Of a DNA stretch of 64,000 bases, positions 37,683 through 43,125 are shown piece after piece. Origin of the DNA: Halogeometricum limi (GTDB lineage: Archaea; Halobacteriota; Halobacteria; Halobacteriales; Haloferacaceae); the NCBI RefSeq assembly GCF_900115785.1, contig NZ_FOYS01000003.1, forward strand, positions 496,001 to 560,000. Reading direction: 5' to 3'. How positions within the stretch are numbered: the stretch's first letter is position 1; each line of letters opens with the position of its first letter. The notes beneath the pieces are model-generated. The model saw only the letters and a list, made by a program, of their open reading frames with translations, was not told where the DNA came from and did no database searches. The translations under genes were made by a program, and so were the position numbers.

Positions 37683-38918
37683 ATGGAACCACTGCCGGTC
37701 GAACTGCTCTACGGACTCTACCTCGGTGTGCTGACCGGGTTCGTCCCGGCGCTCATCGCGTGGGCACTCGGCTTCGTCTTTCGGTACTTCACGGGAATCA
37801 CCATCCCCGGCCTCGCCGTCGTCGGTCTCGGCGTCGCCATCGCGGGGCTGAACGGCGGCCTCCTCGCGCTCGCGGACCCGGCGGTCACCGTCTCGGACAA
37901 CCAGGTGCGACTCACCGTCGCCCTCCTCGTCGTCCTGATGGTGACGCTGTACGCGCACAGCCTCGGCGACAAGATGGGCGCGAACCTCCCGAAGAAGCTC
38001 TCGCTGCGCGAACTCACGGCGCGGACGCTCTCTTCGGACGTGGTCGAACTCGTCGGCGGGCGCGGCCAAGTGCGCGTGAGCGTCGTCGGCGAAGTCGGCG
38101 ACGTCGAAGGGTACCCACCGCTTCCCGCGGCCCTCCGCGAAGAGATTCGCGCGGGCGAGTGGACGTTCCCCGCCGACGTGCCGCTTCTCGACATCGAGAC
38201 GCGCGTCGAGGACCGCCTCCGAACCGACTTCGACCTCGCGGAGGTCGAGGTGACGCTGGACGAACGCGCCCGCGCAACCGTCGCGGCGGCCCCCGGAACG
38301 AGCGGACTCTCGAAGCGGCTCCAGCCCGGTGAACGCGCCGTCTCCGTGACGGCACTCGTCCCGACGGGAACGGCCCGCGGCGACGAGGTGACGGTCCTCG
38401 CCGGCGAGGAGACGTTCGTGGCTCGCGTCCTCGGCGTCGCCGACGGCGGGAAGAAGCCGGACAAAGCCGCCCCGAAGGAGGACGTCGACGTCGGTACCGT
38501 CACGGACGGGGGCGTCGACACCGCACCCACGGGTACGGTTCCGACCGCGGCGGGCGGGGAGTCGCGCGTGACGCTCGCCGTCCGCCGACAGGACGCGTCG
38601 ACGCTCCTCGCGACCGACGACGTCGCCCTGTTCGTTCGGTCGCGCGGCGTCCGACGCGAGTTCGAGTTGGTCACCCTCCTCCGTCGCTCGGGCAAGCGGT
38701 TCCGGCGGCTCACCGCCCGCGAAGGCGGCGTCTTAGACGGATTGACGCTGGGCGAGGCCGACGTCCGCGACCGGCACGACGTCGTCGTCCTCGCGGTCAG
38801 ACACGAGGGGAAGTGGACCGTCGCCCCCCGCGGCGGGCAGGCGGTCGCCGCCGGCGACGAGTTGATAGTCACCGGTGCGTACCCCGACCTGACCGCGTTC
38901 TCGGAGGTGGTGGCGTGA
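37683..38918 (+). CDS. Membrane protein with C-terminal TrkA-C (RCK-C) domain, copy 1
   Basis: A 411-residue protein with three hydrophobic helices in the first 95 residues (LLYGLYLGVLTGFVPALIAWALG and two more), then a long cytosolic part. Two regions resemble TrkA-C/RCK-C beta-alpha domains, around residues 205-250 and at the end (REFELVTLL ... DRHDVVVLAVRHEGKW ... GDELIVTGAYPDL). TrkA-C domains bind small ligands such as c-di-AMP in K+ systems. No channel filter is present. It is coupled to the next gene through a GTGA overlap. Confidence 0.8.
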   Translation: MEPLPVELLYGLYLGVLTGFVPALIAWALGFVFRYFTGITIPGLAVVGLGVAIAGLNGGLLALADPAVTVSDNQVRLTVALLVVLMVTLYAHSLGDKMGANLPKKLSLRELTARTLSSDVVELVGGRGQVRVSVVGEVGDVEGYPPLPAALREEIRAGEWTFPADVPLLDIETRVEDRLRTDFDLAEVEVTLDERARATVAAAPGTSGLSKRLQPGERAVSVTALVPTGTARGDEVTVLAGEETFVARVLGVADGGKKPDKAAPKEDVDVGTVTDGGVDTAPTGTVPTAAGGESRVTLAVRRQDASTLLATDDVALFVRSRGVRREFELVTLLRRSGKRFRRLTAREGGVLDGLTLGEADVRDRHDVVVLAVRHEGKWTVAPRGGQAVAAGDELIVTGAYPDLTAFSEVVA

Positions 38919-40120
38919 CGCCGCTTCAACTCGGCCGAGTCACCGACCTGCTCGGAGTCGTGTTCGCCCAAGCACCGCTCGTCTTCGGACTCGTCGCCCT
39001 CTCGGCGGGTATCTCCGCGGCGGCGGCGATACTCTACCGCTGGTACACCCGCGACGTCGCTCCGACGTGGTTGGCCGCGCTGTTCGGCGGGTCGTCGACG
39101 GCCGTCTACCTGAACGCCGTCGGCCTCCTGAAGACGACGACGGAGGACCCGGCGGCCGTCTTCGACCCGGCGACGGTGCTCGTGAACTCGACCATCCTCG
39201 TCGGCGCCATCGCCGTCTCGCCGGTCGGTCGAACGGTCGGCGACCGAATCGCGACCGACGTGTTCGCCGTCGCCGGTGCCACCTCGATAGACGCCGAAGT
39301 CGGGCGCATCGTGCGAACGGTCGGCCGAGTGACGGTCGTCGAACTGCCCGACGCCGACGACATCGGTGACATCGACGGCTACGACGCCGTCCCCGCGGAG
39401 CGAAAGACGGCCATGGCGGGCAAACGACTGCTGTTCCCGCGTCAACTCACGAGCGACGAACTCGTGGACCGACTCGTCACCCGAATCAAGGAGGACTACG
39501 GCGTCGGCCACGTCGACGTCGAACTGGACGCGGACGACGAGGTGTCGTATCTCGCGCTCGGCCGCCGCGCGGCCGGGTTGGGGCCGACGATGCCGCCGGG
39601 CGTCGCGGCCGTCGCCGTCCGCGGCGACCCCGGCGCGGGAGCGTCCGCGGGCGACGCCGTGCAACTCTGGACCGTCGGCGACGACGGCGACCCGGAACGC
39701 GTCGCCAGCGCCGAACTCCGCGCGACGACGGACGACGTCGCGACCGTCCTGCTAGACGAATCGGAGGCCGAACGACTCGACCACGCGGCGACGTACCGCC
39801 TCCTCACGCTCCCGTCGGACCCCGGCGCGGAACACGAGTTCACCTCGTTGCTCCGCGCGGCCGACGAGACGATGGAGACGGTGCGGGTGGCGGCGGGGAG
39901 CGAACTCGTCGGGACGACGCTGCGAGACCTGAACACCACCGTCGTCGCCGTCGCGCCCGCCGAGGGACCCGTCGAGTCGATTCCGGCCCGGTCGCGCGAA
40001 CTCGCGGTCGGCGACACGCTGTTTCTCGTCGCCCGCCCCGAGACGATTCGTCGCGTCGCGCGGGCGGCCGAAGGCGACGAGGAACCGCCCGCGGACGCGG
40101 CCCGAAACGACGACGACTGA
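38915..40120 (+). CDS. Membrane protein with C-terminal TrkA-C (RCK-C) domain, copy 2
   Basis: A 401-residue partner of the previous gene, started by a GTG whose last bases are the upstream stop (GTGA at 38915-38918). Three N-terminal helices precede cytosolic domains; the end carries a TrkA-C fold (EFTSLLRAADETMETVRVAAGSELVG ... SRELAVGDTLFLVARPE is split here by its loop). The protein is distantly alignable with its neighbour in layout but not closely in sequence. Together they likely form a heteromeric membrane sensor or a regulator of the nearby K+ channel; that is inference. Confidence 0.8.
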   Translation: MTPLQLGRVTDLLGVVFAQAPLVFGLVALSAGISAAAAILYRWYTRDVAPTWLAALFGGSSTAVYLNAVGLLKTTTEDPAAVFDPATVLVNSTILVGAIAVSPVGRTVGDRIATDVFAVAGATSIDAEVGRIVRTVGRVTVVELPDADDIGDIDGYDAVPAERKTAMAGKRLLFPRQLTSDELVDRLVTRIKEDYGVGHVDVELDADDEVSYLALGRRAAGLGPTMPPGVAAVAVRGDPGAGASAGDAVQLWTVGDDGDPERVASAELRATTDDVATVLLDESEAERLDHAATYRLLTLPSDPGAEHEFTSLLRAADETMETVRVAAGSELVGTTLRDLNTTVVAVAPAEGPVESIPARSRELAVGDTLFLVARPETIRRVARAAEGDEEPPADAARNDDD

Positions 40121-40204: not shown

Positions 40205-40495
40205 ATGACGACCGTACGTTGGCGTTTGTTCGCCGACCTCGCGGAGGTGGCCGGCGACAGAGAGACCACCGTCACCGTCGGAGACGGCGCGACGGTCGAA
40301 GACGCACTCGACGCACTGTTGGACGGACGGAACGGCCTCCGCGCCCGCGTCTTCGACGACGGCACCCTCGCGGACCACGTGAACCTCCTCCGGAACGGTG
40401 ACGACGCGTCGCTCTCCGAGAGCGTGGAGGAAGACGACGAACTCGCGCTGTTTCCCCCGGTCAGCGGCGGTGCCAGCTCACACCATCGCGTCTGA
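40205..40495 (+). CDS. Ubiquitin-like small archaeal modifier protein (SAMP1/MoaD type) with C-terminal extension
   Basis: A 96-residue beta-grasp protein that aligns along its length with haloarchaeal SAMP1/MoaD proteins: RLFADLAEVAGDRE at the start, ATVEDALDALLDG, VNLLRNG and the ending ELALFPPVSGG. In SAMP/MoaD proteins the Gly-Gly is normally the very C-terminus, adenylated by UbaA for protein conjugation or sulfur transfer. Here seven more residues (ASSHHRV) follow Gly88-Gly89 before TGA. The ATG at 40205 is used instead of a start at 40178. The last 18 bases overlap the convergent SDR gene. Either processing exposes the di-glycine, or activity is altered. Confidence 0.88.
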   Translation: MTTVRWRLFADLAEVAGDRETTVTVGDGATVEDALDALLDGRNGLRARVFDDGTLADHVNLLRNGDDASLSESVEEDDELALFPPVSGGASSHHRV

Positions 40496-41548
40496 GGGGA
40501 CGTCTGGGTGGTCGCGGACGTACTCGACCAGCGTCCGAGCGTACGCGCCGAACGCCGGCGGCGACACGCCCGTCCCCGCCAAGTCGCGGCGCGCGTTCGG
40601 GCAGACGTAGCGCGTCGGGTGCGTGAAGTACGGCACGACGGCCGGGTCCACGCCGGTCCACCGGCGAACGCGCTCGACGGAGAGCACGCGAGTCAGGAGC
40701 GACTGCGACGTCGGCACCGAGAGGACGCGCCGGTCCGTCGCCGCGGCGAGGATACTCCGGACGTCGGCGACGGTGGGCGGGTGCGGGTCACACAGGTTGT
40801 ACGTCGTGCCGACGGCGCGGTCCGTTCGCGAGAGGGCGTCGATAGCGTCGACGACGTAGTCGCGGGGGACGACGTTCAATTCCGTCGTCGTCGCGCCGCG
40901 GAGTCGCGGAAACACCGCGAGACGAGGCTGGCGAAGCAGGAACCGAATCAGGTAGTACGGCCCGTCGTACTTCTGCGTCTCGCCCGTCCGACTGTCGCCG
41001 ACGGTTATCGCGGGGCGGTAGACGGTCGCCGCGAGTCCGTCGGCCATCCGGTCGCGGACGGCGACTTCGGCGAGATACTTCGTCTCCTCGTAGTGGTTGG
41101 TGAACGACTGGCCCTCCCGAAGCATCGCCTCGTCGAACACGCCGCCGTACCGGCCGCTGACGTAACAGGTGCTGACGTACTGGAGTCTCGCGTCCGCGCG
41201 TTCGGTGAAGTCGAGGACGCGTTCCGTTCCCTCGACGTTGACGCGCCTCGCGAGTTCGCGTTCGACGCCGAGGTCGTACACCGCCGCGAGGTGGAACACC
41301 TCGTCGGCGTCGTCCGCGAGTCTCTCGTACCGGTCGTCGGCGAGTCCCACCCTCGCGTCCGTCAGGTCGCCCTCGTGGAGTCGAATCCGGTCTGCCCAGT
41401 CCGTGCCCGCGATTTCGGCGGCGCGTCGCTCCGCTTCGTCTCGGTGGGCCGACTGCACGAGACAGTCGACGCGGTCGGTCCGGTCGAGGAGACGGTCGAC
41501 CAGCGCGGACCCGAGAAAGCCCGGAAACCCCGTGAGGAAGACGCTCAC
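40478..41548 (-). CDS. SDR family NAD(P)-binding protein, acyl reductase-like (NAD_binding_4)
   Basis: A 356-residue extended SDR. It opens with the glycine motif FLTGFPGFLGSAL and has the YVSTCYVSGRY and Y-E-E-T-K (HYEETKYLAE) active-site elements. This resembles the reductase domains of fatty-acyl-CoA reductases and thioester reductases. The GTG at 41546-41548 overlaps the stop of the upstream aldehyde dehydrogenase (GTGA), so I prefer it to an ATG at 41567-41569 that adds only Arg-rich residues. Coupling with an aldehyde dehydrogenase suggests a joint aldehyde/acyl redox task. Confidence 0.85.
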   Translation of the reverse strand: MSVFLTGFPGFLGSALVDRLLDRTDRVDCLVQSAHRDEAERRAAEIAGTDWADRIRLHEGDLTDARVGLADDRYERLADDADEVFHLAAVYDLGVERELARRVNVEGTERVLDFTERADARLQYVSTCYVSGRYGGVFDEAMLREGQSFTNHYEETKYLAEVAVRDRMADGLAATVYRPAITVGDSRTGETQKYDGPYYLIRFLLRQPRLAVFPRLRGATTTELNVVPRDYVVDAIDALSRTDRAVGTTYNLCDPHPPTVADVRSILAAATDRRVLSVPTSQSLLTRVLSVERVRRWTGVDPAVVPYFTHPTRYVCPNARRDLAGTGVSPPAFGAYARTLVEYVRDHPDVPSDAMV

Positions 41549-43125
41549 TCGCCGCCGCCGCGTCGCCATGCGGTGAGTCGGTCGGTCAGTCGCGCGTTCG
41601 CGTTCAGGAAGAAGGTCCAGACGCCGCGGGGGACGCCCGAAGGCCGCGTGAGCGGGCGGCCTCGCTGTGTGGCGACGGTCTGGGACTCCGTGAAGCGCGT
41701 CATGCCGACTTCGCCGTGTCGGCGGCCGATACCGGAGTCGCCCACGCCGCCCATCGGGGCGTCCAGCGACGCCCACGCGGCCGCGTAGCCGTCGTTGACG
41801 TTCACCGTCCCGGCCTCGATTCGCTCTGCGACCTGTTCGGCGCGCGCGGTGTCCTCGGACCAGACGCTCGCGTTCAGTCCGTGCGGACCCTCGTTCGCCC
41901 GTTCGACGGCGTCGGCGATGCCCGACACCTCGTAGACGGCCGCGACGGGACCGAACGTCTCCTCGGTCGCACAGGTCATCTCGGGCGTCACGTCCGTCAG
42001 CACGGTCGGTTCGTAGGCGTACGGGCCGACGTCTTCGCGTCTCCGTCCGCCCGTCAGCACCGACGCGCCCTTCTCCGCGGCGTCCTCGACGTGCGATTCG
42101 ACCTTCTCCAACTGCCGTTCGGAGGCGAGCGTTCCGACGTCGTAGTCGAAGTCGTACCCCGACCCGAGCGTGAGTCGGCGGGCCTCCTTCACGAACGCGT
42201 CCACGAACTCGTCTCTGACCTCGCCGTCGACGTAGATTCGCTCGATGGAGATGCACAACTGCCCCGCGTTCGAGAACGAGGCGTTCGCCGCGTTCCGGGC
42301 GGCGGCCTCCACGTCGGCGTCAGCGAGGACGAGCATCGGGTTCTTCCCGCCGAGTTCGAGCGAGCAGTCGACGAGGTTCCGTCCCGCGGTTTCGGCGACG
42401 ACGCGGCCGACGTCGGTGCTCCCGGTGAAACAGACGTAGTCCGCTTCCTCCACCATCGACTCGCCGAGTTCGTCGCCGTAGCCGGTGACGACGGGGAAGA
42501 GGTCCTCCGGGAGGCCCGACTCGACGAGGAGTTCGCGGAGTCGAAGCGCCGAGAACGGCGTCCCCTCGTCGGGTTTCAGGACGACGGCGTTGCCCGCGAG
42601 GAGGGCGGGGACGGCGTCGGAGATGGCGAGCGTGAGCGGGTAGTTCCACGGCGAGATGATTCCGACGACGCCGACGGGGTGGCGGTGTTCCGTCGCTCGC
42701 GTGGCCACCGGGACGGCGCCGCCTCGCCGGCGACTCGACAGGTACGACCCGGCGTGGTTCGCGTAGTACCGCGTCGTCGCGGCGATGTCGATGGCCTCCT
42801 CGTGGGCGTCGACGCGCGACTTGCCCGTCTCGGCCTGTGCGACGTCCAACAGCGACGACTGCTCGTCGAGCACTCGGTCGTGGAACGCCTCGAAGACCGC
42901 GACCCGGTCGCGTAGCGGTCGGTCCGCCCACTCCGACTGCGCCTCCCGGGCGCGTTCGTAGGCGGCGCGAACGTCGTCTGCGTCACAGGCGGGAACCGTT
43001 CCGAGCGTCTCGCCGTCGAACGGTGACTCGACGGCGAGCGTGGGACGGTCCGAAACGGTGGTGACGTCGTCCGCGAGAGCGTCGAACTCGAACCGGCGGA
43101 CGGTCGTCTGCGTCGAGAGCGTCAT
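41545..43125 (-). CDS. Aldehyde dehydrogenase (succinate-semialdehyde dehydrogenase family)
   Basis: A 526-residue NAD(P)-dependent aldehyde dehydrogenase. Blocks seen in order: PWNYPLTLAISDAVPALLAGN (cofactor), FTGSTDVGRVVA, SLELGGKNPMLV with the catalytic Glu, NAGQLCISIERIYV with the nucleophilic Cys, and ATEETFGPVAAVY. It is closest to succinate-semialdehyde dehydrogenases, but medium- or long-chain aldehydes are possible. A 35-residue C-terminal extension with PRGVWTFFLNANARLTDRL follows the domain. TATA box TATAAAC on the plus strand at 43150-43156 is well placed. Confidence 0.9.
   Translation of the reverse strand: MTLSTQTTVRRFEFDALADDVTTVSDRPTLAVESPFDGETLGTVPACDADDVRAAYERAREAQSEWADRPLRDRVAVFEAFHDRVLDEQSSLLDVAQAETGKSRVDAHEEAIDIAATTRYYANHAGSYLSSRRRGGAVPVATRATEHRHPVGVVGIISPWNYPLTLAISDAVPALLAGNAVVLKPDEGTPFSALRLRELLVESGLPEDLFPVVTGYGDELGESMVEEADYVCFTGSTDVGRVVAETAGRNLVDCSLELGGKNPMLVLADADVEAAARNAANASFSNAGQLCISIERIYVDGEVRDEFVDAFVKEARRLTLGSGYDFDYDVGTLASERQLEKVESHVEDAAEKGASVLTGGRRREDVGPYAYEPTVLTDVTPEMTCATEETFGPVAAVYEVSGIADAVERANEGPHGLNASVWSEDTARAEQVAERIEAGTVNVNDGYAAAWASLDAPMGGVGDSGIGRRHGEVGMTRFTESQTVATQRGRPLTRPSGVPRGVWTFFLNANARLTDRLTAWRRGGGE

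Follow-up and report, generated by a model that had tools for sequence, protein, structure and literature searches.

A SAMP1 gene of Halogeometricum limi encodes a short extension after its di-glycine that is probably a pro-sequence removed by JAMM1

The DNA analyzed here, a window of 64,000 nucleotides from Halogeometricum limi, contains at positions 40205-40495 of the plus strand (96 aa, stop included in the coordinates) a gene for SAMP1, a β-grasp ubiquitin-like modifier of the MoaD type. The translated protein, MTTVRWRLFADLAEV...LALFPPVSGG-ASSHHRV, belongs over its full length to the NCBIfam SAMP1 equivalog NF041918, which it matches with 109.3 bits against a curated cut-off of 60, residues 4-89 aligning to profile positions 1-91. 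A further match of 50.6 bits was obtained with the Pfam ThiS family (PF02597), and the top matches in the PDB are the structures of Haloferax volcanii SAMP1 (2l83, 4hro and 3po0; E=2.7e-28). The initial annotation had described a SAMP1-like protein in which Gly88-Gly89 is followed by ASSHHRV; the family and structure matches bear out the identity, and translation confirms the tail.

The codons of Gly88-Gly89 (40466-40471, plus strand) specify the conserved di-glycine that constitutes the predicted mature end of the protein. This pair is invariant in the alignment of SAMP1 orthologues, the protein body leading up to it is well conserved, and the SAMP1 family models terminate at Gly89, so that the seven last residues lie outside the known family. 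The tail itself, presumably a pro-peptide, occupies 40472-40492 on the plus strand and is followed by a TGA stop codon at 40493-40495. In an AlphaFold model built with 16 homologues, residues 1-80 are predicted confidently (block pLDDT 82-93), while residues 88-95 are of low confidence (pLDDT<50) and the chain is modeled as unstructured from residue 88 onward. On the minus strand, a convergent SDR gene (ORF 40478-42256, stop codon 40478-40480) has its 3′ end at 40478-40495, where it covers the stop codon of SAMP1 and the five tail codons before it; the overlap is exactly 18 bases, as originally noted. Upstream of SAMP1 lies a gene (38813-40120) with a product that, judged by eye, is similar to TrkA-C ligand-sensing domains in its C-terminal part, and the ORF that precedes it (37683-38918) resembles that gene.

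The window SAMP1 is the sole SAMP1 of a genome that keeps both MoaE (one copy, 100 bits) and a UbaA-type E1 (one copy, 277 bits). Moreover, all three SAMPs of this genome are tailed, and all three carry Ala directly after the di-glycine: SAMP1 ends in GG-ASSHHRV, SAMP2 in KGG-AP, and SAMP3 in VAGG-ARE. The SAMP1 and SAMP3 ends of 243 genomes of the order, one genome per species, were read with a DNA pattern that leaves the tail free but demands a non-T base at its last position; the survey rows were transcribed by hand into a parsing script, to which the SAMP1 of the window was added by hand. Tails were found in 26 of 145 readable cases for SAMP1 and in 67 of 139 for SAMP3, and many orthologues that pass NF041918 encode, like the window protein, a VSGG motif with further residues behind it. 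SAMP2 was searched for among relatives, a set including the genera Halorubrum, Haloplanus, Halobellus and Haloferax, with a query whose identity as SAMP2 was confirmed through its match to PDB 2l32; 13 of the 30 relatives read have a tailed SAMP2.

On the SAMP1 tree, the tail state switches at least 8 times, with 12 switches by parsimony. The comparison across genomes indicates that tails are common in the order and evolve repeatedly. Neither the view that the extension is an exceptional case nor the view that the protein is probably inactive finds support, tails being widespread and borne in this genome by SAMP2 and SAMP3 as well. In Halorubrum, a SAMP1 tail reads SVGR. Within the Halorubrum clade, pN/pS is 0.39 at tail positions 2-4, as compared to 0.24 in the SAMP1 body and 0.75-0.81 after the stop; given the few codons involved, these values are only suggestive of selection at the level of the tail. 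An extension of 113 residues in SAMP1 of G036 (locus L093) appears to be a read-through at a site where relatives stop after four residues (SxxR).

Although the tails vary, the residue directly after the di-glycine does not vary freely. It is small (Ala, Ser, Thr, Gly or Cys) in 25 of 26 tailed SAMP1, 58 of 67 tailed SAMP3 and 11 of 13 tailed SAMP2 proteins, whereas in untailed SAMP1 genes the codon behind the stop specifies such a residue in 34% of cases (binomial p of 5e-11 for SAMP1 and 1e-18 for SAMP3). Loci L033-L076 were left out of these statistics, as they were retrieved with the search peptide FPPVSGGA, which favors GG-Ala. When genera are counted by majority, the first residue is small in 11 of 12 for SAMP1 (p=7e-5) and in 22 of 26 for SAMP3 (p=2e-7). 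The bias is weaker at the following positions, with small residues at +2 and +3 in 10/24 and 13/23 SAMP1 tails and in 22/58 and 21/51 SAMP3 tails, respectively. The recurrence of tails across the order with so strongly constrained a first residue is thus more than would be expected by chance. Exceptions, in which the first residue is Arg, His, Asn, Val or Ile, occur in a few genera. Among them are the g48 genomes G114, G100, G125, G175 and G180, whose SAMP3 tails have Arg, His or Asn after the di-glycine; in most of these g48 exceptions the SAMP3 stop overlaps the ATG of the next gene (ATGA).

A cleavage site would be expected to constrain the residue that follows GG, and the bias seen there supports processing by a JAMM protease. 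The genome of H. limi encodes two JAMM-family proteins. The first, the desampylase JAMM1, lies on the same contig as the window, approximately 26 kb past its right end (C3:585989-586423, minus strand). Its sequence, which contains SEVCG...HSHPESDPVPSRTD, scores 184.6 bits against NF041370, for which the cut-off is 130, and the JAMM motif E...HxHx7Sx2D is intact (HSHP-ESDPVP-S-RT-D); by family score and motif alike it is a desampylase, and a cognate JAMM protease is accordingly present in the genome of the tailed SAMP1. The second, JAMM2 (C6:491898-492206), also keeps the JAMM motif.

A search of the 243 genomes with this JAMM1 gave 172 positives. Among genomes more than 90% complete, all 71 in which SAMP1 or SAMP3 is tailed possess JAMM1, and all 33 that lack it are untailed; a further 70 are JAMM1-positive and untailed. 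No NF041370 desampylase above the cut-off was found in any of the 33 JAMM1-less genomes of this completeness. The association between tail and JAMM1 is significant both by genome (Fisher 3e-9) and by genus (26/45 vs 0/12, p=2e-4). It is phylogenetically clustered, in that 25 of the 33 JAMM1-less genomes belong to one family, yet it survives shuffling within families. The relatedness of species was handled by collapsing genera and by shuffling JAMM1 labels within families: 7.4 tailed JAMM1-less genomes were expected and none was observed (p=5e-5; genus-collapsed p=6e-4). A tailed SAMP3 with no detected JAMM1 occurs in three genomes (G175, G030 and G038), all of them incomplete (87, 81 and 59%). 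Another candidate, G223, was rejected, as what had been matched there is not SAMP3 and is not in frame. In G033, a ubiquitin-like gene with an ASGG end is immediately preceded by a gene of the JAMM1 type (locus L092, C1:6250-6973), an arrangement that recalls the adjoining Csub_C0702/Csub_C0703 pair.

Taken with the sequence of the window protein, in which the extension follows straight upon the di-glycine and begins with a small residue (GG-A) as in a JAMM precursor, these data make it probable that the SAMP1 tail is a pro-sequence cut off by JAMM1 after GG. Removal of the tail by a JAMM protease had been proposed initially, and that proposal is supported by the desampylase orthologue, the association of tails with JAMM1 and the constraint after GG; the cleavage itself is a prediction. 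That the tail is instead removed by another enzyme, be it JAMM2 or, halting at GG, a general protease or carboxypeptidase, appears unlikely. While JAMM2 is indeed present in the genome with its motif kept, SAMP1 is untailed in the relatives that have only a JAMM2-type protein (G013, G023, G026, G027 and G034), tails are never found in near-complete genomes devoid of JAMM1, and a general carboxypeptidase would leave the residue constraint after GG unexplained.

The SAMP1 tree places the window genome and G002 as sisters (support 91/76). A tail is present in this sister species as well (GG-AGRRRV) but is absent from the congeners G001, G003 and G004, where SAMP1 stops at GG; the tail is therefore not fixed in the genus. 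The distance from the di-glycine to the SDR stop is 79 nt in G002 and 6 nt in the window genome, and this 73-bp difference is best read as an intergenic deletion in the lineage of the window, relative to G002. Such a deletion would have brought the SDR end to adjoin the di-glycine, with the result that the tail codons past Ala-Ser are antisense to the SDR. The C-terminus of the SDR is conserved between the two species, reading PSDAMV in the window and SSAAMT in G002 and ending at the same residue in both.

An origin of the tail by stop loss, inferred initially from the overlap, hence stands in so far as the intergenic region with the stop was probably lost through the deletion of ~73 bp; the overlap, however, is no general cause of tails, since G002 already has a different tail that lies in non-coding DNA and overlaps nothing. 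Nor are the two tails simply homologous, despite both ending in RV, as the final codons of the window tail find their counterpart in the SDR gene end and not in the G002 tail. A tail of this origin, with a sequence that is poorly conserved among orthologues, might also belong to an inactive or decaying copy that has lost its stop by deletion and retains its tail, in a cell that lives without SAMP1. This seems very improbable, given that conservation of SAMP1 is good as far as the di-glycine, that no second SAMP1 accompanies the gene in a genome retaining MoaE and E1, and that all three SAMPs are tailed within an order-wide pattern that is constrained. A sequencing or assembly error that hides a true stop right after GG, as in the three untailed congeners, is very unlikely, because the reading frame of the SDR on the other strand runs unbroken across these bases and stops where that of its orthologue does, the independently assembled sister species is also tailed, and tails recur in dozens of genomes.

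Adenylation by UbaA requires a free C-terminal glycine, as established for H. volcanii. In the encoded window protein VSGG is not terminal, and a mature end would therefore have to come from the predicted cleavage by JAMM1. The ribosome would make a SAMP1 precursor with a short unstructured tail, and JAMM1 would cut the bond after Gly89, thereby freeing ASSHHRV and placing Ala90 (40472-40474, plus strand) at the P1′ position of the presumed cleavage site, where most tailed SAMP1 and SAMP3 proteins have a small residue. Once exposed, the mature VSGG end would be open to adenylation by the E1 (UbaA), and the adenylated SAMP1 would proceed to a thiocarboxylate, for molybdopterin synthesis with MoaE, and to conjugation with lysines. 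From the sequence data we infer both the cleavage and the activity of its product in H. limi.

H. volcanii SAMPs have been studied as proteins with a ready-made di-glycine, and JAMM1 has been regarded chiefly as the enzyme that detaches them from their targets. H. volcanii SAMP1 (HVO_2619; PDB 3po0, 4hro and 2l83) is of the same family and of the same length up to VSGG, but GG is already its encoded C-terminus, whereas the window SAMP1 has seven more residues. The precursors of eukaryotic ubiquitin, SUMO and NEDD8 likewise have an extension after GG that is removed before activation, although by cysteine-protease DUBs and SENPs and not by a JAMM metalloprotease.

Closer precedents exist among archaea. 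Both in vitro and in vivo, HvJAMM1 cleaves a linear SAMP1-MoaE fusion precisely behind its GG, and the fusion is functional in vivo only with JAMM1 (PMC4443979). The enzyme family and the VSGG end are the same as in H. limi; that fusion was artificial, however, whereas the window protein has a natural short tail. A natural precursor trimmed by a JAMM protease, as proposed for the window SAMP1, is known from Caldiarchaeum, where CsJAMM processes SAMP precursors (PMC6043591), although this is a distant archaeal lineage and the processing demonstrated there in vitro is predicted here. In addition, a bulky residue after GG blocks cutting of an archaeal ubiquitin precursor by the related Rpn11 and Gly speeds it, which fits the small residue found after GG in the present proteins (PMC6043591). 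JAMM maturation of a SAMP is thus familiar from Caldiarchaeum; for natural precursors in haloarchaea, no report was found in the literature.

The data suggest that SAMPs are precursors in much of the order and that JAMM1 has a second, upstream role, with processing predicted to depend on JAMM1 and on a small residue after GG. This upstream role is directly testable in culturable relatives, and annotators need not treat residues after GG as an error. JAMM1 would be tolerant of many tails, so that the position of the stop could drift and extensions of any length, even whole domains, would be accepted provided that they begin with a small residue. Were everything behind GG to be trimmed off by JAMM1, the place of the stop codon would be nearly neutral save for the first residue, and a SAMP gene could overlap a convergent gene, as in the window, run into the start of its downstream neighbor, or be fused in frame to the next domain.

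The latter two are found for the other SAMPs. In the window genome the tail codons of SAMP3 share bases with the GTG start of the next gene, and many Halorubrum-type SAMP3 ends overlap the next start as GCATGA. In several genera, SAMP3 is fused in frame to a conserved protein of ~86 aa that ends in RAGG, and SAMP2 is fused in frame to AhpC/TSA-type peroxiredoxins (loci L144 in G039, L150 in G015 and L154 in G018); the Pfam AhpC/TSA family matches the fusions of G015 and G018, and that of G039 is similar by eye. Such natural SAMP polyproteins, as whole-domain fusions, would need cutting too. A wider and more tentative possibility, somewhat short of an even chance, is that JAMM1 serves in many haloarchaea as a licensing maturase on which the entire SAMP system depends. 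SAMP1-3 would be born inactive and sometimes as polyproteins (SAMP2-peroxiredoxin, SAMP3-RAGG); this one enzyme would turn sampylation on when it trims and off when it deconjugates, and freeing the modifier would at once free the partner fused to it.

The ~86-aa protein after SAMP3 (loci L091 and L109-L128) has the pattern FRGISxRLA...LTEVTVxFEGD...KAMRAGG, in which the terminal RAGG is invariant; no family for it was found in Pfam, NCBIfam or the PDB. In H. limi the corresponding locus lies outside the window (G000:C3:198460-198717), and the congeners without SAMP3 are also without the ~86-aa protein. Finally, SAMP2 of G035 (locus L160) bears an extension that is, by eye, GNAT-like.
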